From: an uncultured Gammaproteobacteria bacterium
GTDB taxonomy: Bacteria; Pseudomonadota; Gammaproteobacteria; JAADHQ01
NCBI GenBank assembly: GCA_947258655.1
Contig: CAMYJD010000008.1
Coordinates: 1 to 64,000 of the forward strand
DNA: 64,000 nucleotides
Direction: 5' to 3'
Shown here one piece after another: positions 35,782 to 54,171 of this stretch. How positions within the stretch are numbered: the stretch's first letter is position 1; the number at the start of each line of letters is the position of its first letter. The notes beneath the pieces were generated by a model, which had not been told where the DNA came from, did not search any database, and saw only the letters and a program-made list of their open reading frames with translations. The position numbers and the translations under genes were made by a program.

Positions 35782-37347
35782 ATGAGCACTATGGAAAAGG
35801 TCATTATCAGGACCCCGCCACAGATGGGTTTCCATAATCCCGAGGTCATCACCAATATACGCGAACTGAGAGAATGGCTTGATTCCCTGCCCCTGTTAAA
35901 GCCGGCGCCGACGGTCAAGCAACTGATAGATGCCATTGATGCTAACAATCGTCAACAACTGAACCCGAAAAAACGCCAGCTACTGTTGCATGAGTATCGC
36001 CAGGTGGTCCTGCAGATCAATCCGTCACTGAACCTGAATACCCTCCAACGCCAGTCGCTGACGGAACAGGAACGTGAACAGCTGCAGCTACAGACTACGA
36101 CATTATGTGCTGTTCTGGCAGATGGATATAAAATCATTATCAAGGAGGCACTCGAAGAGGGTATTGCGCACAAGCCAGACATCCTGTTCGAGCCACTTTA
36201 TCTTGCCCTCGAAGCACTATCATTGGCATTACTGAACTGCTTCCGTTCATATAAATCCGCACCCAAAAACCTGTATCAGGATACACACCAGCTTTACATG
36301 CTGGCCGAGCACACTGATTTACTTGAACATGAGATCGAGCCAGACAAGCTGAGCCTGTCCGCCGTGAATATAGGCAATCTGTATAAACAAACAATGATAC
36401 TGGCATATATCGATCCATATCATCTGCCTTCAGGAATTGCAGAAAGACTGTACGAACGACTGTCACGCCTGTCGATGCATTGCAATCTTCTCGACAGGCT
36501 TCCTGCCGCTGATACCGAGAAAGCCTTCATTACAGACCTGTTCTCCGATGAAGCACCAAGGGCGATATACAAGATTCCGCAACCCGCCGCGTTAAAGATG
36601 CCGCGGGTATTCGATCTGCAAGCGATGACCGTCAAGATACAGGCCGAGATAGAAACCCTACAGGAACAGCAAGCTGGACTGTCTGTTGACAACGAGATCA
36701 GCCTGCTAAAGAGACTGTTGCCTGCCGGCAAGGAGGAGCAGACACGCAAAGCTCCACGCATCGACAGCGAACGCTCATGCAAGGTAAGTTTCGGCATTGA
36801 CGCCGTCCATTATTTTCTGAACATTGGCAAACGGGAGCTGGAACAGGTTTTGAATTCCAATGCTGACCGATTTGGCCCACATTTGCTGGAATCGTGGGCG
36901 GTTATCAACGAAAGTCAGGGCGGACTCAGTCTGAGCAGCGAGCACATAACCCGGCACGATGTCAGGGTAGGAGACATCATTGGCCTGTTAAGCGAAAAGA
37001 ATGGCGCAGATGAAAAGCACGGAAGCATCGCGATTATCCGCTGGGTGCGTAACGACAAACAAAACCAGATTAACATAGGCGTTGAATACATCAACGGTAA
37101 CCTGCTGCCGGCGATCTGTCGCTTGATCGATGGACCTGACACCAACAATACCTTCGCCGCCATATTCGTCAGCAGTATGTCCCTGAACGACATGCCGGCC
37201 ACTCTGATAACAGCGAAAAAGGTCTACCAGCGTGGCAGAATAATGGAAGTAACGATTGGCGACCAGCCTTTGCGTATCAAGGCAGGTTATCTTCGTGATG
37301 ACACCTTCACTTTCGACCGTTTCGATTTCACCAGTCTGAACAACTGA
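35782..37347 (+). CDS. Large protein with C-terminal PilZ-like domain (paralogue A)
   Basis: A 521-residue protein of no named family that I can recognise. The first 300 residues are helical and variable, including HQLYMLAEHTDL and the IYKR-like LYKQTMILAYIDPYHLPSGIAERLYERL segment. The last 200 residues have features of a PilZ domain: RKAPRIDSERSCKV, then NESQGGLSL (N-x-S-x-x-G), then VRVGDIIGLLS and IAIIRWVRND. It aligns along its whole length with the protein at 50347, so the two are paralogues. Binding of c-di-GMP is inferred from the motif. It starts 10 bases after rhlB, so is probably cotranscribed with it. Confidence 0.7.
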   Translation: MSTMEKVIIRTPPQMGFHNPEVITNIRELREWLDSLPLLKPAPTVKQLIDAIDANNRQQLNPKKRQLLLHEYRQVVLQINPSLNLNTLQRQSLTEQEREQLQLQTTTLCAVLADGYKIIIKEALEEGIAHKPDILFEPLYLALEALSLALLNCFRSYKSAPKNLYQDTHQLYMLAEHTDLLEHEIEPDKLSLSAVNIGNLYKQTMILAYIDPYHLPSGIAERLYERLSRLSMHCNLLDRLPAADTEKAFITDLFSDEAPRAIYKIPQPAALKMPRVFDLQAMTVKIQAEIETLQEQQAGLSVDNEISLLKRLLPAGKEEQTRKAPRIDSERSCKVSFGIDAVHYFLNIGKRELEQVLNSNADRFGPHLLESWAVINESQGGLSLSSEHITRHDVRVGDIIGLLSEKNGADEKHGSIAIIRWVRNDKQNQINIGVEYINGNLLPAICRLIDGPDTNNTFAAIFVSSMSLNDMPATLITAKKVYQRGRIMEVTIGDQPLRIKAGYLRDDTFTFDRFDFTSLNN

Positions 37348-48105: not shown

Positions 48106-49632
48106 TCATGCCAACTGATCATCGGCAACATGGTACTTGGGATCTTCAAGTACATTGACCTCTACCAGGTTGCCGGCCTTCTTCAGCAAACCCCTGCATT
48201 CCGGGCTCAGATGGCGCAGATGCAGGGTCTTGCCTGCCTTGATATATTTTTCCGCGAGGTTATCAATCGCCTCGATGGCGGAGTGATCGACCACGCGCGA
48301 GTCCTGAAATTCGATAATAACATCATCCGGGTCCGTTGCGGGATGAAAGAAATCACGGAAATGCTTGACCGAAGCAAAAAACAGCGGCCCGCTCAGCTCA
48401 TAAATCTTGGAGCCATTATCATCGATATAGTGCTGCACGCTGATTTGCTTGGCATGTTCCCAGGCAAATACCAGCGCCGAAACGATCACACCCACTATGA
48501 CGGCAATGGCCAGGTCGGTGACCACGGTCACGGCCGATACCAACACCAGTACGAACACATCGCTGCCAGGCACCTTGCCGATCACGCGCAGACTCGACCA
48601 TTCAAATGTTGCCATAACGACAATAAACATAACACCGACCAGTGCCGCCAGCGGGATCTGTTCGATCAACTGGTAACCGAACAGGATAAAGCTGAGCAGA
48701 AACAAGGCCGCCGCAACAGCAGACAGGCGTTGATGTCCGCCCGAATTGATATTGATCATGCTCTGCCCAATCATCGCGCAACCGCCCATGCCGCCAAACA
48801 GTCCGGTCACGGTGTTGGCAATCCCCTGCCCAACGCACTCGCGGTTACCACGCCCGCGGGTATTGGTCAGGTCATCGATCAGGTTCAGGGTCAACAGGGA
48901 TTCGATCAGGCCGATCGCGGCCAGGATAACCGCGTAGGGCAGAATGATCTTCAGGGTCTCGAGATTCCAGGGCACATCGGGTATATGAAAGTCAGGCAGA
49001 CTGCCTTGCAGTGAACTCAGGTTACCGACCGTCGTGGTGTCGATATCGAGGCCAATGACCAGTAGCGATACAACGACGATGGCTGCCAATGAAGACGGGA
49101 TCGCCGTGGTCAGTTTAGGCAGGTACTGAATAATGACCATCGTCAACACAATCAGGCCGAGGAAAGTCCATAGCACCGTATCCGCCATCCATTGTTTGGC
49201 GTCATCCGGCCCGACCTGAAAATGCTGCAACTGCGACAGGAGAATGACAATCGCCAGGCCGTTAACAAAACCCAGCATGACCGGGTGCGGGACGATGCGA
49301 ATAAACTTGCCCAGCCTCAGAACCCCGGCCGTCATCTGCAACAACCCGGTCAACACCACCGTCGCGAACAAGTACTCGACACCATGGTCTGCAACCAGGG
49401 CGACCATGACCACGGCCATGGACCCGGTCGCTCCCGAGATCATGCCCGGCCGCCCACCAAAGATCGCCGCCAGCAGGCCGACCATGAAGGCCGCATACAG
49501 GCCGACCATCGCCGGCACATCGGCGACAAACGCGAAGGCGACAGCCTCGGGGACCAATGCCAGTGCGACCGTCAGACCGGACAGGATTTCATTACGAAAA
49601 CAGACACGGCTGGCGCAACCTAGCTGAAACAT
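48106..49632 (-). CDS. SulP-family anion transporter with STAS domain
   Basis: A 508-residue SLC26/SulP transporter. The membrane part has about 11-14 helices and starts with EILSGLTVALALVPEAVAFAF, the family signature; SGATGSMAVVM and GMGGCAMIGQSMININSGG follow. The C-terminal STAS domain is about 385-490 (IIEFQDSRVVDHSAIEAIDNLAEKY in part). Substrates in the family include sulfate, bicarbonate and dicarboxylates; which one cannot be told. GAGG lies 6 bases before the ATG. Confidence 0.93.
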   Translation of the reverse strand: MFQLGCASRVCFRNEILSGLTVALALVPEAVAFAFVADVPAMVGLYAAFMVGLLAAIFGGRPGMISGATGSMAVVMVALVADHGVEYLFATVVLTGLLQMTAGVLRLGKFIRIVPHPVMLGFVNGLAIVILLSQLQHFQVGPDDAKQWMADTVLWTFLGLIVLTMVIIQYLPKLTTAIPSSLAAIVVVSLLVIGLDIDTTTVGNLSSLQGSLPDFHIPDVPWNLETLKIILPYAVILAAIGLIESLLTLNLIDDLTNTRGRGNRECVGQGIANTVTGLFGGMGGCAMIGQSMININSGGHQRLSAVAAALFLLSFILFGYQLIEQIPLAALVGVMFIVVMATFEWSSLRVIGKVPGSDVFVLVLVSAVTVVTDLAIAVIVGVIVSALVFAWEHAKQISVQHYIDDNGSKIYELSGPLFFASVKHFRDFFHPATDPDDVIIEFQDSRVVDHSAIEAIDNLAEKYIKAGKTLHLRHLSPECRGLLKKAGNLVEVNVLEDPKYHVADDQLA

Positions 49633-50106
49633 AGACGACCTCGAATAATTAGGGCTTGGAAATAGCGCGCATAATATCAGATATACCTTATATACCCCAG
49701 TGGTTTGTCAGTTGACGTTTTTGAAAACCCGGGTATTGGATCACTGGCATGGACGCTAACGACGATCCCGAACGCCGGTATTAATGCAAGTACCACTGAA
49801 CATTCGGGCTGGTCACTAACCTGAACCGTAAAATTGAACAGCTCCGGCTGTGTGCGGACATGTCACGCCAATCACTTAGCGCCGTCTCGATATCGGCAGT
49901 GCGTGCAAATTATTTATTATATTACAGATAGTTATATAAACATCGACGGCGTGGGCCGGGGTACCCTGGACGCCACGACGTCCGCCATTTTGCAATTTAT
50001 AGATCCGGGTACCTGTAATAATAATTCAGAAGTAAAAAAATAATGTTAAAATTTATTAAACTTTTTCTTGCAATATCACTACACATTGTACTACTATAAT
50101 CACACA
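49633..50106. other. Intergenic region upstream of sulP and of the riboswitch
   Basis: A 474-base gap between divergent genes. It must carry the leftward sulP promoter and, near 50040-50100 where it is AT-rich, the rightward promoter for the riboswitch transcript. TTGCAA (50070) with TATAAT (50095) at a longer than ideal spacing is a weak candidate. No protein-like frame is convincing here. Confidence 0.45.
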
Positions 50107-50195
50107 ATCTGACAAGGGCAATTCTATCCGAAAGGTGGGGGCGCAAAGCTACCGGTCTAAAAGTCACGCGACTTACGACGGCGGGGTTACCAGAT
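50107..50195 (+). promoter_or_regulatory. c-di-GMP-I (GEMM-I) riboswitch aptamer
   Basis: The sequence matches the GEMM-I aptamer typified by Vibrio cholerae Vc2. A closing helix ATCTG (50107-50111) / CAGAT (50191-50195) encloses AGGGCAA, a first stem capped by a GAAA tetraloop (TATCC-GAAA-GGTGG), the conserved GCGCAAAGCTACCGG, TCTAAAA, a second stem GTC-ACGC-GAC, and GGCGGGGTTACC, the tetraloop-receptor side. The conserved G and C that contact the ligand in Vc2 are kept. It lies 152 bases upstream of a PilZ-like protein gene on the same strand, so c-di-GMP very likely controls that gene's expression. Confidence 0.92.
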
Positions 50196-50346
50196 ACACG
50201 CGTACTGTTCAGCATCGCTGATAACGCTACCCCCCTTGGCCTTATTGGCCGCACCGGATCCACCTGTTCAATTGTGTATTTATGCTGGCTTGCAGTCAAT
50301 CAACACTATCGGCTGCTGCTATTAACCGATTTTTTGGAACAACTTG
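50196..50346 (+). promoter_or_regulatory. Likely riboswitch expression platform
   Basis: Between aptamer and start codon are a GGCC-TTATT-GGCC hairpin (about 50238-50250) and, just before the start codon, ATCGG (50308-50312) / CCGAT (50326-50330) followed by TTTTT (50331-50335) and the GGAAC ribosome-binding site. The latter stem is short but could work as a terminator or hide the binding site. Whether c-di-GMP turns the gene on or off cannot be told. Confidence 0.45.
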
Positions 50347-52203
50347 ATGAATCTGACCACACAATTCACTGAATCTGGTAAACCTGCCCTGGATAAAATA
50401 TTGCACGCCGACCTGTTGGGGCAATGGCTGGCGCAACTACCGGCAGCGGATTCTATTACCAGCGCAAATATGTTGCTTGAATTGCTGACCCAATTTAACC
50501 ACCAGGCCTGCAGTGCCAACAAACGCTTCGAACTGTTGGCTACGCTGCAAGCGGATATGGACAGAACGCTGAAGGCATTGAAAAAACGTTGCAGACACGC
50601 GACTGTGCCGCTGCCCCACAAAAAACAGATCATCTCCACTCTGCGTAAAGACCTGCTGAGCGAGTATGCCAATGCCTACAAGACCATCGCGGCAGACATC
50701 ATCAATGCGGACCATCGCAATAAAAAACAGTCCGGCTTGCTCAGCGAGGCCATTTATCAAGCGATCAGCCTGATGTCACAATATATAATCGAGACCTTTC
50801 TGTTATATCAACCATTACCGCATGATTGCTGGAGAGATATTCATCAGCTTTATGCCCATGCAGAAGGAAATCATATAGCACACGCACCTGTCCGCGACCT
50901 GAATGACAGGACCATCACCCATATATACAAACGCATTGTACTGCTGGCACTGGCCAATCCATATCAAATGATGTCCGGCGAAGCGGAAAACGTATATGAC
51001 AATCTGGACAACTGGGCCACGGCCTGTAGCATCACTGATCTGGGCACAGCATCTCCCGCAGGCAAGTGTTTTATCGATTTATCCCATGACCTGCCGCCCA
51101 GACGTCTACGCGCCAACGAAGGCTGGAGCAGGGTCACGCCGGTTGAGGGTCGAATTATCAACATTGATGGTTTGCTGGAACAAGTTAACACATGCATAAA
51201 TGCCGTTCATACAGGCAGACAACAGACAAAACTGAAAAATCGCCTGCAACGTGACCTGTGCCTGCGTCTGGTGCAGGCCTGGGGACCCAGGCAGGAACGT
51301 CAGCATGAGCGTATCGATAGTAACGGAAATGTGCTTATGGCCGCCGGCCTGAGCGCTGTCCATTATTATCTTAACGGGGAAGCACCGTTTAAGCCTGCAC
51401 TGGATCCTGCTGCCGAGGCTACGCCTGACAATCACCAACCGATTGATAAGCAGCACGGACTCAATCTGATGCCACTGGATGAACACTATCTCGGCAATGA
51501 TGCCGGCATCAATAATGCCGCAACAAGCCATTCATCTTCTTCAACAAAGCCTGTGTTTAATAGTAATCAGCTCAATAATCCGTGGGATACACAGACGCAG
51601 ATCAACACGTACATGAACACGCAGGCTGAGGCGGAAGGGAAACATGCACCCTATATTTCTTCCATATGGACAGCGCAGAATCAATCGCAAGGTGGCATGG
51701 CGCTGTACTGCAATGTCGATACTATCAATACATCTTCGCCGCAAAACCTGTCTGATCATGGCGCATCACTATCGTTCAATGGTGATCATCGCCTCAGGGT
51801 TAATGTAGGCGATATTGTTGTTTACCAGGAAAAACAGAAAAATAATGGCTGGGCCACAGGCGTTATTCGTTGGCTCAGGTCTGACACCGGAGTACGTCTG
51901 GATGTGGGCATTAAAAAGATTTCCGGCACTGCGATGGCCGTATCAACGCAGGCCGTGGTCGGCACCGGTAAGGGTGGAGATTGCTTTCGCGCTATTATTA
52001 TCCGTGAAGTGAACGCTAACGGCACAGATTTCTCGATCATCACGCCCTCCGTGATCTATGACCTTGATACGATACTGGAGGTCCGCAACAACAAGCGCAA
52101 ACAGTACATCAAACTCGAAACAATGCTGGATTCGACTGCTTCCTACTCCCATTTTACGTTAACAAGGATCAGCTTCCCCAGCAGTGCCAGTCGGGCCGAC
52201 TGA
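50347..52203 (+). CDS. Large protein with C-terminal PilZ-like domain (paralogue B), riboswitch-controlled
   Basis: A 618-residue paralogue of the protein at 35782. I start it at ATG 50347; a TTG one codon earlier is possible. Matching segments include WRDIHQLYAHAEGN, IYKRIVLLALANPYQMMSGEAENVYDNL, HERIDSNGNVLMAAGLSAVHYYLN, and the PilZ-type NQSQGGMAL (N-x-S-x-x-G) with LRVNVGDIVVYQEK and VIRWLRSDTG. A roughly 100-residue polar insertion precedes the C-terminal domain (about 345-435). Function is unknown; c-di-GMP binding is inferred. It follows the GEMM-I riboswitch and converges on the serine-hydrolase gene. Confidence 0.72.
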   Translation: MNLTTQFTESGKPALDKILHADLLGQWLAQLPAADSITSANMLLELLTQFNHQACSANKRFELLATLQADMDRTLKALKKRCRHATVPLPHKKQIISTLRKDLLSEYANAYKTIAADIINADHRNKKQSGLLSEAIYQAISLMSQYIIETFLLYQPLPHDCWRDIHQLYAHAEGNHIAHAPVRDLNDRTITHIYKRIVLLALANPYQMMSGEAENVYDNLDNWATACSITDLGTASPAGKCFIDLSHDLPPRRLRANEGWSRVTPVEGRIINIDGLLEQVNTCINAVHTGRQQTKLKNRLQRDLCLRLVQAWGPRQERQHERIDSNGNVLMAAGLSAVHYYLNGEAPFKPALDPAAEATPDNHQPIDKQHGLNLMPLDEHYLGNDAGINNAATSHSSSSTKPVFNSNQLNNPWDTQTQINTYMNTQAEAEGKHAPYISSIWTAQNQSQGGMALYCNVDTINTSSPQNLSDHGASLSFNGDHRLRVNVGDIVVYQEKQKNNGWATGVIRWLRSDTGVRLDVGIKKISGTAMAVSTQAVVGTGKGGDCFRAIIIREVNANGTDFSIITPSVIYDLDTILEVRNNKRKQYIKLETMLDSTASYSHFTLTRISFPSSASRAD

Positions 52204-52218
52204 TGGGGACCGTGTATC

Positions 52219-54015
52219 TCATTGAGCCGTTGCGCGCACGATTTCATATCCCGAGTAAAGCAGGAACTGCTCACCATCACGTTGCAGCAGGCGCATAGTC
52301 TCTCCCATACCGCGACCGATTCCGGCAATTACGACCGCGTCATCTGCAACCGGCAGTAACGCCATCTTGATCTGTTGATCGGCGAAAACAGGCATACGAT
52401 AACGGACGATGATCAGGCCATCTTCAACGGCCAGCTCGATATCCTCTATCGGCATGGCCGAGTCCGGGTTTCTGATGCGTAAACGCCCCAGCCAGTTATG
52501 TATTTTTTCCGGTATGGCCTTTTTGCTTATTTTTTCGGCCAACAGGAATTCCCTACCTCCGGATCTAAGAACCAACACTTGTCGACCATTGATAACTGCC
52601 GGCCTGATCAACAGCCCGTCCAGGCCTGAAACGGACAATGGTATCAGGCCCAACAGTTTGTATTGCGGACTCATCCAGCCCCCTTTGCGCGCCCGTAATG
52701 ACAGGTTTTTTCCGATCGCCCTGGCCGTGTACTGCCTGTCCTTGCGCTCGACTTCAATCAGACCTGCAGCACCCGCATAATAACCTTCGAGCGGGAAGGG
52801 CAGGTTTTCCATGGCATCGACAAGAGCAGGTAATTCCTCTGTATTATTGTCGGCCGGTTTACGCCCTGTTGTGACTTCCAGCGCCAGTTTCAGCGCCGCG
52901 TCTGCAACCTTGTCCACCACCGCCCTGCCTGATGCAGCATTACTCAGGACAATGACGCCGAGCTTGTGGTCCGGCAATATCGCCAGTTGACTGTGATAAA
53001 GTAAGGTACCACCCGCATGTGAAGCCTTGCGTTCTCCCCCCACCTTCGACTTCGATTCGAGAAACCAGGCCAGACCCATCTCAAGATCAAAATCCAGCGC
53101 GACATCGGCATTCTGACGCGCCAGCATCTCGGTCAACGTGTCTGCCTGTATAATCTGCCGGCCACCACTGGCACCATTTGCGAACACCATTTTGACAAAT
53201 TGCGACAGGTCCTCGACGCTGGTATGCAGTGCGCCAGCCGGGACATCCCTTAACCCAACCAGCTCGACCGCAGCACCATCACGATACCCGGTGGCCATCA
53301 TTGCCATATGCTCTGTCGAAGGCTGAAAAGACGAGTCGTGCATATTCAAGGGCTGGAACAATGCCTGCTCCATATGTTGTGCATATTCCCTACCGGCCAC
53401 AGTGGCTACGGCATGACCGAGCAGGCTGTAACCGAGATTGGAATATAAAAAGGCCTGCCGTGGCGGCAACGCGACATACTCATCCCTGATCTGCTCTACC
53501 AGCCTTGTATAAGGCTCGGGATTATCAACCCACATCCCGGCGTTACGGCTATTCGGCAAACCTGCATGATGGGTCATCAGATGACGCGGGGTAATCTTGA
53601 TATCAGATTCAAAACGGCTTTTGATGGAGAACGCAGGCAGGTATGTCGTCAATGGTGCATCGATATCCATGTTGCCCTGTTCGACGAGTTGCATCGCAGC
53701 CGTTGCGGTAAACAGTTTCGATATCGAGCCGGCACGATACAGTGTTTTGCCGCTGGCCTGTTTTTTCCCGGCCACATCGGCATAACCAAATCCCGCGGAC
53801 CATACAATACGCTGATCATCCACCAATGCAATGCTGACGGCCGGCACATTGGCGTCCTTCATTTCCTTTTCAATCAGCCATGACAGGTATTGCCTGGCAT
53901 AACTATAGTCACCCTGCGACAGGTTGTGCGGTTTTTTCGGCGCTGTAGAACAGGCGCTGAGCAGCAGCGGCACCAGAAAAGGTAACATCAAGCGTTTTTT
54001 TCGTATTTGCATCAA
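52219..54015 (-). CDS. Lipoprotein serine hydrolase of the class C beta-lactamase family
   Basis: A 598-residue lipoprotein (lipobox LLLSACSTA, C22). The N-terminal 370 residues are a penicillin-binding-protein-like hydrolase with S97-x-x-K100 (SISK), Y191-x-N193 (YSN) and an HAGG motif at H333 in place of KTG. About 210 C-terminal residues form a beta-rich extension of unknown role. Members include D-aminopeptidases, esterases and peptidoglycan carboxypeptidases; beta-lactamase activity should not be assumed. It stands alone, convergent with the PilZ-like gene (15-base gap). Confidence 0.88.
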   Translation of the reverse strand: MMQIRKKRLMLPFLVPLLLSACSTAPKKPHNLSQGDYSYARQYLSWLIEKEMKDANVPAVSIALVDDQRIVWSAGFGYADVAGKKQASGKTLYRAGSISKLFTATAAMQLVEQGNMDIDAPLTTYLPAFSIKSRFESDIKITPRHLMTHHAGLPNSRNAGMWVDNPEPYTRLVEQIRDEYVALPPRQAFLYSNLGYSLLGHAVATVAGREYAQHMEQALFQPLNMHDSSFQPSTEHMAMMATGYRDGAAVELVGLRDVPAGALHTSVEDLSQFVKMVFANGASGGRQIIQADTLTEMLARQNADVALDFDLEMGLAWFLESKSKVGGERKASHAGGTLLYHSQLAILPDHKLGVIVLSNAASGRAVVDKVADAALKLALEVTTGRKPADNNTEELPALVDAMENLPFPLEGYYAGAAGLIEVERKDRQYTARAIGKNLSLRARKGGWMSPQYKLLGLIPLSVSGLDGLLIRPAVINGRQVLVLRSGGREFLLAEKISKKAIPEKIHNWLGRLRIRNPDSAMPIEDIELAVEDGLIIVRYRMPVFADQQIKMALLPVADDAVVIAGIGRGMGETMRLLQRDGEQFLLYSGYEIVRATAQ

Positions 54016-54171
54016 CTGACTCCTTGTTGGCGGGCAGGTTAAATCCCTGCAGGTTTTAGCATAAAAATATTACACGTAAATATGATGATACTACTATTCG
54101 AGCGTACAACTTCCATTACCTGGTGCCAGATACGCATCCGATGTACGCTAATAGGGAATTCAACATTGAAT

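Follow-up and report, generated by a model that had tools for sequence, protein, structure and literature searches.

Identification of a c-di-GMP-I aptamer

The window (the whole stretch of 64,000 nucleotides analysed here) carries on its forward strand a c-di-GMP-I (GEMM-I) aptamer at positions 50107-50195, a long leader that runs from it to the start codon (50195-50346) and a gene for a 618-aa protein at 50347-52203. The ATG at 50347 lies 152 nt past the aptamer on the same strand, with no other sizeable gene in between. The sole Rfam match within the 64-kb window was RF01051 (c-di-GMP-I) at 50107-50194(+), which spans model positions 1-87 of 87 and reaches 67.9 bits (E=3.6e-11) against a gathering score of 35 bits. 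When a permissive filter was applied to 49600-50700, the RF01051 aptamer was again found alone (E=6.2e-13). The initial annotation had proposed a c-di-GMP-I riboswitch and named this search as a check, and the significant, full-length score bears the proposal out.

The structure of the aptamer can be read directly in the sequence. P1 is perfect, with AUCUG (50107-50111) paired to CAGAU (50191-50195), which agrees with the closing helix claimed earlier and confirms the 3' end given there, 50195. The GAAA tetraloop helix can be traced, as can the GCGCAAAGC segment and the receptor segment, so that the tetraloop, receptor and ligand-contact segments previously listed are indeed present, with a single receptor base off consensus (UACG vs the model-favoured UAUG).

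Two bases bear on the ligand. The G at 50117(+), model position 11 in the RF01051 alignment, corresponds to G20 of Vc2, the c-di-GMP/cGAMP selectivity base (PMC9262584, PMC7288161); this position helps to discriminate between cyclic dinucleotides (PMC9262584). The C at 50190(+) is taken from its position as the equivalent of Vc2 C92, which contacts the other guanine (PMC4744006, PMC7288161). As cGAMP-sensing riboswitches are variants within the GEMM-I family (PMC7266159), the aptamer might sense 3',3'-cGAMP instead of c-di-GMP. This is very improbable, because the G20 equivalent is G and not A, and it is G20A that accommodates cGAMP (PMC6274999, PMC7288161) and is tied to its recognition (PMC9262584, PMC6274999). 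Since G50117 is the G20 equivalent, c-di-GMP is therefore the expected ligand.

Predicted folding of the leader

A candidate -10 element, TATAAT, is located at 50095-50100(+), its 3' end 6 nt upstream of the aptamer. The candidate lacks a good -35 and, for that reason, is omitted by the consensus promoter scan. When the leader is folded from 50107 to its minimum-energy structure, positions 50132-50144 are predicted to pair with 50226-50237(+), a C-rich candidate anti-aptamer strand (GC..CCCCCCUU), and the tetraloop helix of the aptamer is thereby opened. Competition between this strand and the tetraloop helix would be the most plausible switch, although it is a guess from folding without comparative support. 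The direction and level of control are likewise a guess.

Other switching elements were considered and rejected. An intrinsic terminator AUCGG(50308-50312)..CCGAU-U has a weak 5-bp stem and a 13-nt loop, shows a pairing probability of ~0.001 and is outcompeted by a GCAGUC/GGCUGC hairpin. The anti-P1 pairing CAAGGG/CCCUUG has a pairing probability of 0, while ACACAAU/AUUGUGU would require a transcript start upstream of the candidate start site. RBS sequestration was dismissed, as the states do not differ in the predicted ensemble: the RBS, the AUG and the terminator-like hairpin behave the same in free and aptamer-enforced folds of the leader. A possible 21-codon leader ORF (MLACSQSTLSAAAINRFFGTT) at 50282-50347(+), which may be a chance occurrence, ends in a TGA that shares its A with the ATG of the 618-aa gene (TGATG). 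No Shine-Dalgarno was seen for it, and its overlap with the start codon could allow translational coupling.

Fold prediction thus gave no convincing terminator or RBS switch in the leader. Together with the off-consensus receptor base and the lack of conservation of the aptamer at the equivalent position in relatives, this could mean that the riboswitch is degraded, i.e. that the aptamer still folds but has lost a working expression platform. We regard such decay as improbable. The high score and the intact P1 and core bases are not what a decaying element would be likely to retain, and Vc1 of V. cholerae, whose long leader has no visible terminator or anti-SD, still regulates gbpA, and does so positively (PMC4744006).

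Another GEMM-I is present in the source genome, before a gene for an Ig/cadherin-like secreted protein. A congener likewise has one before an Ig/cadherin-like gene, plus another before the gene of a very large protein. The leader before the Ig/cadherin-like gene is conserved (L034:5876-6025 and L036:6847-6985, minus strand), and in it a downstream CCUUU(A/G)CAG is able to base-pair with the 5' strand of the aptamer and sits next to an SD-pairing segment, which suggests a translational OFF switch. An element of this type is absent from the window leader, and the OFF-switch model is therefore not carried over.

The downstream gene encodes a PilZ-like protein

According to the ORF, the family alignment and AlphaFold, the 618-aa protein consists of a helical N-terminal domain, a predicted PilZ barrel and further C-terminal strands. 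It belongs to an unnamed family of ~600-aa proteins with homologues in 173 of 369 genomes, an even sample of the class. Standard models recognize it poorly. PF07238 (PilZ) gave 12.3 bits (E=0.22), below the Pfam cut-off of 22.5, and matched just 2 of 38 family relatives at E<0.01; nine genes of the source genome pass the Pfam PilZ cut-off, and the gene at 50347 is not among them. NCBIfam had no match for the protein, and sequence searches of the PDB returned nothing useful. Because the Pfam cut-off is missed, we term the protein PilZ-like, or split PilZ, and not a member of PF07238.

The family alignment comprises 38 members at 19-30% identity to the 618-aa query. It reveals an RxxxR motif, RQHER (aa 318-322; 51298-51312, +), of which both arginines are invariant in 38/38 relatives, and an (N/D)xSxxG motif, NQSQGG (aa 445-450; 51679-51696, +), which is largely conserved, with G450 invariant and the serine kept in most relatives. 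Y154, Y194, R318, R322, G450, G488 and G521 are the invariant residues of the alignment. The motifs are separated by 122 aa (aa 323-444; 51313-51678, +), in which the alignment and AlphaFold place one strand and a helix followed by a poorly conserved insert, with pLDDT < 50 at aa 353-410. It is because this insert separates the motifs that the PF07238 model fails. A second N-x-S-x-x-G, NLSDHG (aa 467-472; 51745-51762), falls in a stretch of ~22 aa hardly found outside this protein; the motif there is probably a chance occurrence. The initial annotation was hence right in calling the protein PilZ-like and in pointing to an N-x-S-x-x-G motif, which occurs twice. Its grounds were partly incomplete: the family's conserved site is NQSQGG, the second copy is not a true motif, and the RxxxR motif (RQHER) went unmentioned.

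AlphaFold modelled the full-length protein with a pLDDT of 82.8 and the C-terminal part (aa 226-618) with 77.2. When the C-terminal model was searched with Foldseek, PlzA:c-di-GMP ranked first and BcsA:c-di-GMP third, the latter with a probability of 1.00 and 20% identity over 97 columns. VCA0042, MrkH, PP4397, MotI and YcgR appeared as further PilZ matches. PilZ proteins made up most of the leading matches, a highly consistent picture, although the E-values were modest (3e-3 to 0.2), with no match of this model at E <= 0.001. The search with the full-length fold was uninformative, yielding 14-3-3, BamD and Cry noise. The PilZ-like assignment, weak by Pfam alone (12.3 bits), is strengthened by the 38/38 RxxxR, the conserved (N/D)xSxxG and the fold matches to BcsA, PlzA, VCA0042, MrkH, PP4397 and YcgR.

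Structural, non-binding PilZ domains usually lose RxxxR and NxSxxG. Here both RxxxR arginines are invariant in 38 sequences that are only 16-30% identical to the query, and NxSxxG is retained as well. It is therefore unlikely, if somewhat less so than decay of the riboswitch, that the aptamer functions while the PilZ domain no longer binds c-di-GMP, leaving the RNA alone to sense it. Such a structural PilZ would fit the low Pfam score and the unusually long motif-to-motif distance, and some PilZ domains that do not bind c-di-GMP are known (PMC3131395). From its motifs and predicted fold, the 618-aa protein very probably binds c-di-GMP.

The genome encodes two paralogues of the protein, one of them within the window at 35782-37347. 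This 521-aa paralogue has the motifs RKAPR and NESQGG and a shorter insert. Its gene lies directly behind a DEAD-box helicase gene, has orthologues in 3/3 congeners and has no riboswitch. The GC content of the 50347 gene (0.498) is below that of its neighbours and equal to that of this paralogue, and therefore does not argue for transfer.

Genomic context and recurrence of the pairing

In the closest relative (G003), the flanking genes are those for a SulP permease (87% identical) and for TetR-like and VIT/VWA proteins, but the gene that they enclose is a different one, of 743 aa; the same interval of the window holds the riboswitch, the 618-aa protein gene and a serine beta-lactamase-fold gene. 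Homology to G003 upstream of sulP stops near 49705. From sulP to the TetR-like gene, window positions 49705-54100 are wholly unlike G003, whose interval is the single 743-aa gene. As the content of the interval differs between the two, the riboswitch-gene pair lies in a variable segment, and a comparison of the sequences suggests that it was either gained in the source genome or lost in G003.

GEMM-I is present in 66 of the 369 genomes of the class. We collected 110 GEMM-I loci and examined the gene behind the aptamer for 102. Among these ~102 loci, the split-PilZ family profile matched downstream of GEMM-I at two, the window and G238, a genome from a different family of the class in which GEMM-I lies 79 nt before the family member (L099). 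A canonical PilZ gene follows GEMM-I at three more loci, all of the response-regulator-PilZ kind (L106, L108 and L102; genomes G243, G338 and G335). Other GEMM-I targets in the class include GGDEF, EAL, subtilases, Ig/cadherin proteins and M23 peptidases. The rough chance expectation was ~0.05 for the split-PilZ family and ~0.34 for any PilZ, vs 2 and 5 seen, where the expectation rests on assumed gene numbers per genome and G243 and G338 are relatives. The pairing of the riboswitch with a PilZ gene is thus uncommon yet recurrent. A search of an open-access library found no paper that describes it.

At 20 other loci of related proteins, GEMM-I was found in 0/20. None of the genus relatives has a riboswitch before a gene of the 50347 type, and the comparison within the lineage thus cannot demonstrate that the pairing is under selection. 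The protein tree places the two riboswitch-linked family members together with low support (76/82), and one of the two has a long branch; a single origin and convergence would both fit. A DUF1631 gene of G335 (795 aa, 555 bits; L101:137-2521, minus strand) has a GEMM-I 12 nt in front of it, so another family of unknown function is linked to c-di-GMP.

Proposed mechanism and comparison with known systems

Taking the aptamer, its position, the gene, the conservation of the motifs in the family and the predicted fold together, we consider it probable (about 0.8) that a c-di-GMP-I riboswitch controls production of a split-PilZ c-di-GMP receptor, with binding and regulation as the inferred steps. 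Placed at the start of the leader, the aptamer would control how much is made of a receptor whose PilZ domain, with RxxxR and NxSxxG separated by an insert, stands behind an all-helical N-terminal domain. c-di-GMP would set the amount of this protein via the RNA, perhaps through competition of the tetraloop helix with the 50226-50237 strand, and its conformation or partner binding via the PilZ domain. That c-di-GMP acts twice, as proposed earlier, is thus inferred from sequence for both ligand binding and regulation of the gene. Points against this explanation are the sub-cut-off Pfam PilZ score, the modest Foldseek E-values, the lack of a predicted state change, the missing -35 and the absence of the riboswitch both from the 20 other loci and from the gene's genus relatives.

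The locus offers a compact, testable case in which one second messenger would act on an mRNA and probably also on its protein product, the riboswitch target being a probable receptor. Of more use is that the analysis recognizes a widespread split-PilZ family, almost wholly missed by the Pfam and NCBIfam models. Because an insert splits the motifs and the models overlook the PilZ-like domain, c-di-GMP receptors in the class are probably undercounted.

Compared with known systems, the riboswitch and the protein each belong to a known kind or stand near one. The aptamer resembles RF01051 and V. cholerae Vc2 and Vc1 in its full-length covariance-model match, P1, GAAA tetraloop and ligand-contact bases, and its leader is likewise long and free of a visible terminator or anti-SD, as in Vc1 (PMC4744006). 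It differs from Vc2 and Vc1 in its target, a split-PilZ protein gene instead of gbpA or a tfoX-like regulator. The protein shares RxxxR, (N/D)xSxxG and, by Foldseek, the beta-barrel with the PilZ domain (PF07238; the BcsA C-terminal PilZ, PlzA, VCA0042, YcgR). However, 122 aa that include an insert separate its motifs, it misses the Pfam cut-off, and it adds a large all-helical N-terminal domain and further C-terminal strands. The response-regulator-PilZ genes of G243, G338 and G335 also follow a c-di-GMP riboswitch, but their products, a receiver plus a canonical PilZ of ~260 aa, have an unrelated architecture. The pair in the window is thus a well-supported, if fairly ordinary, instance in which a single signal would act at two levels.
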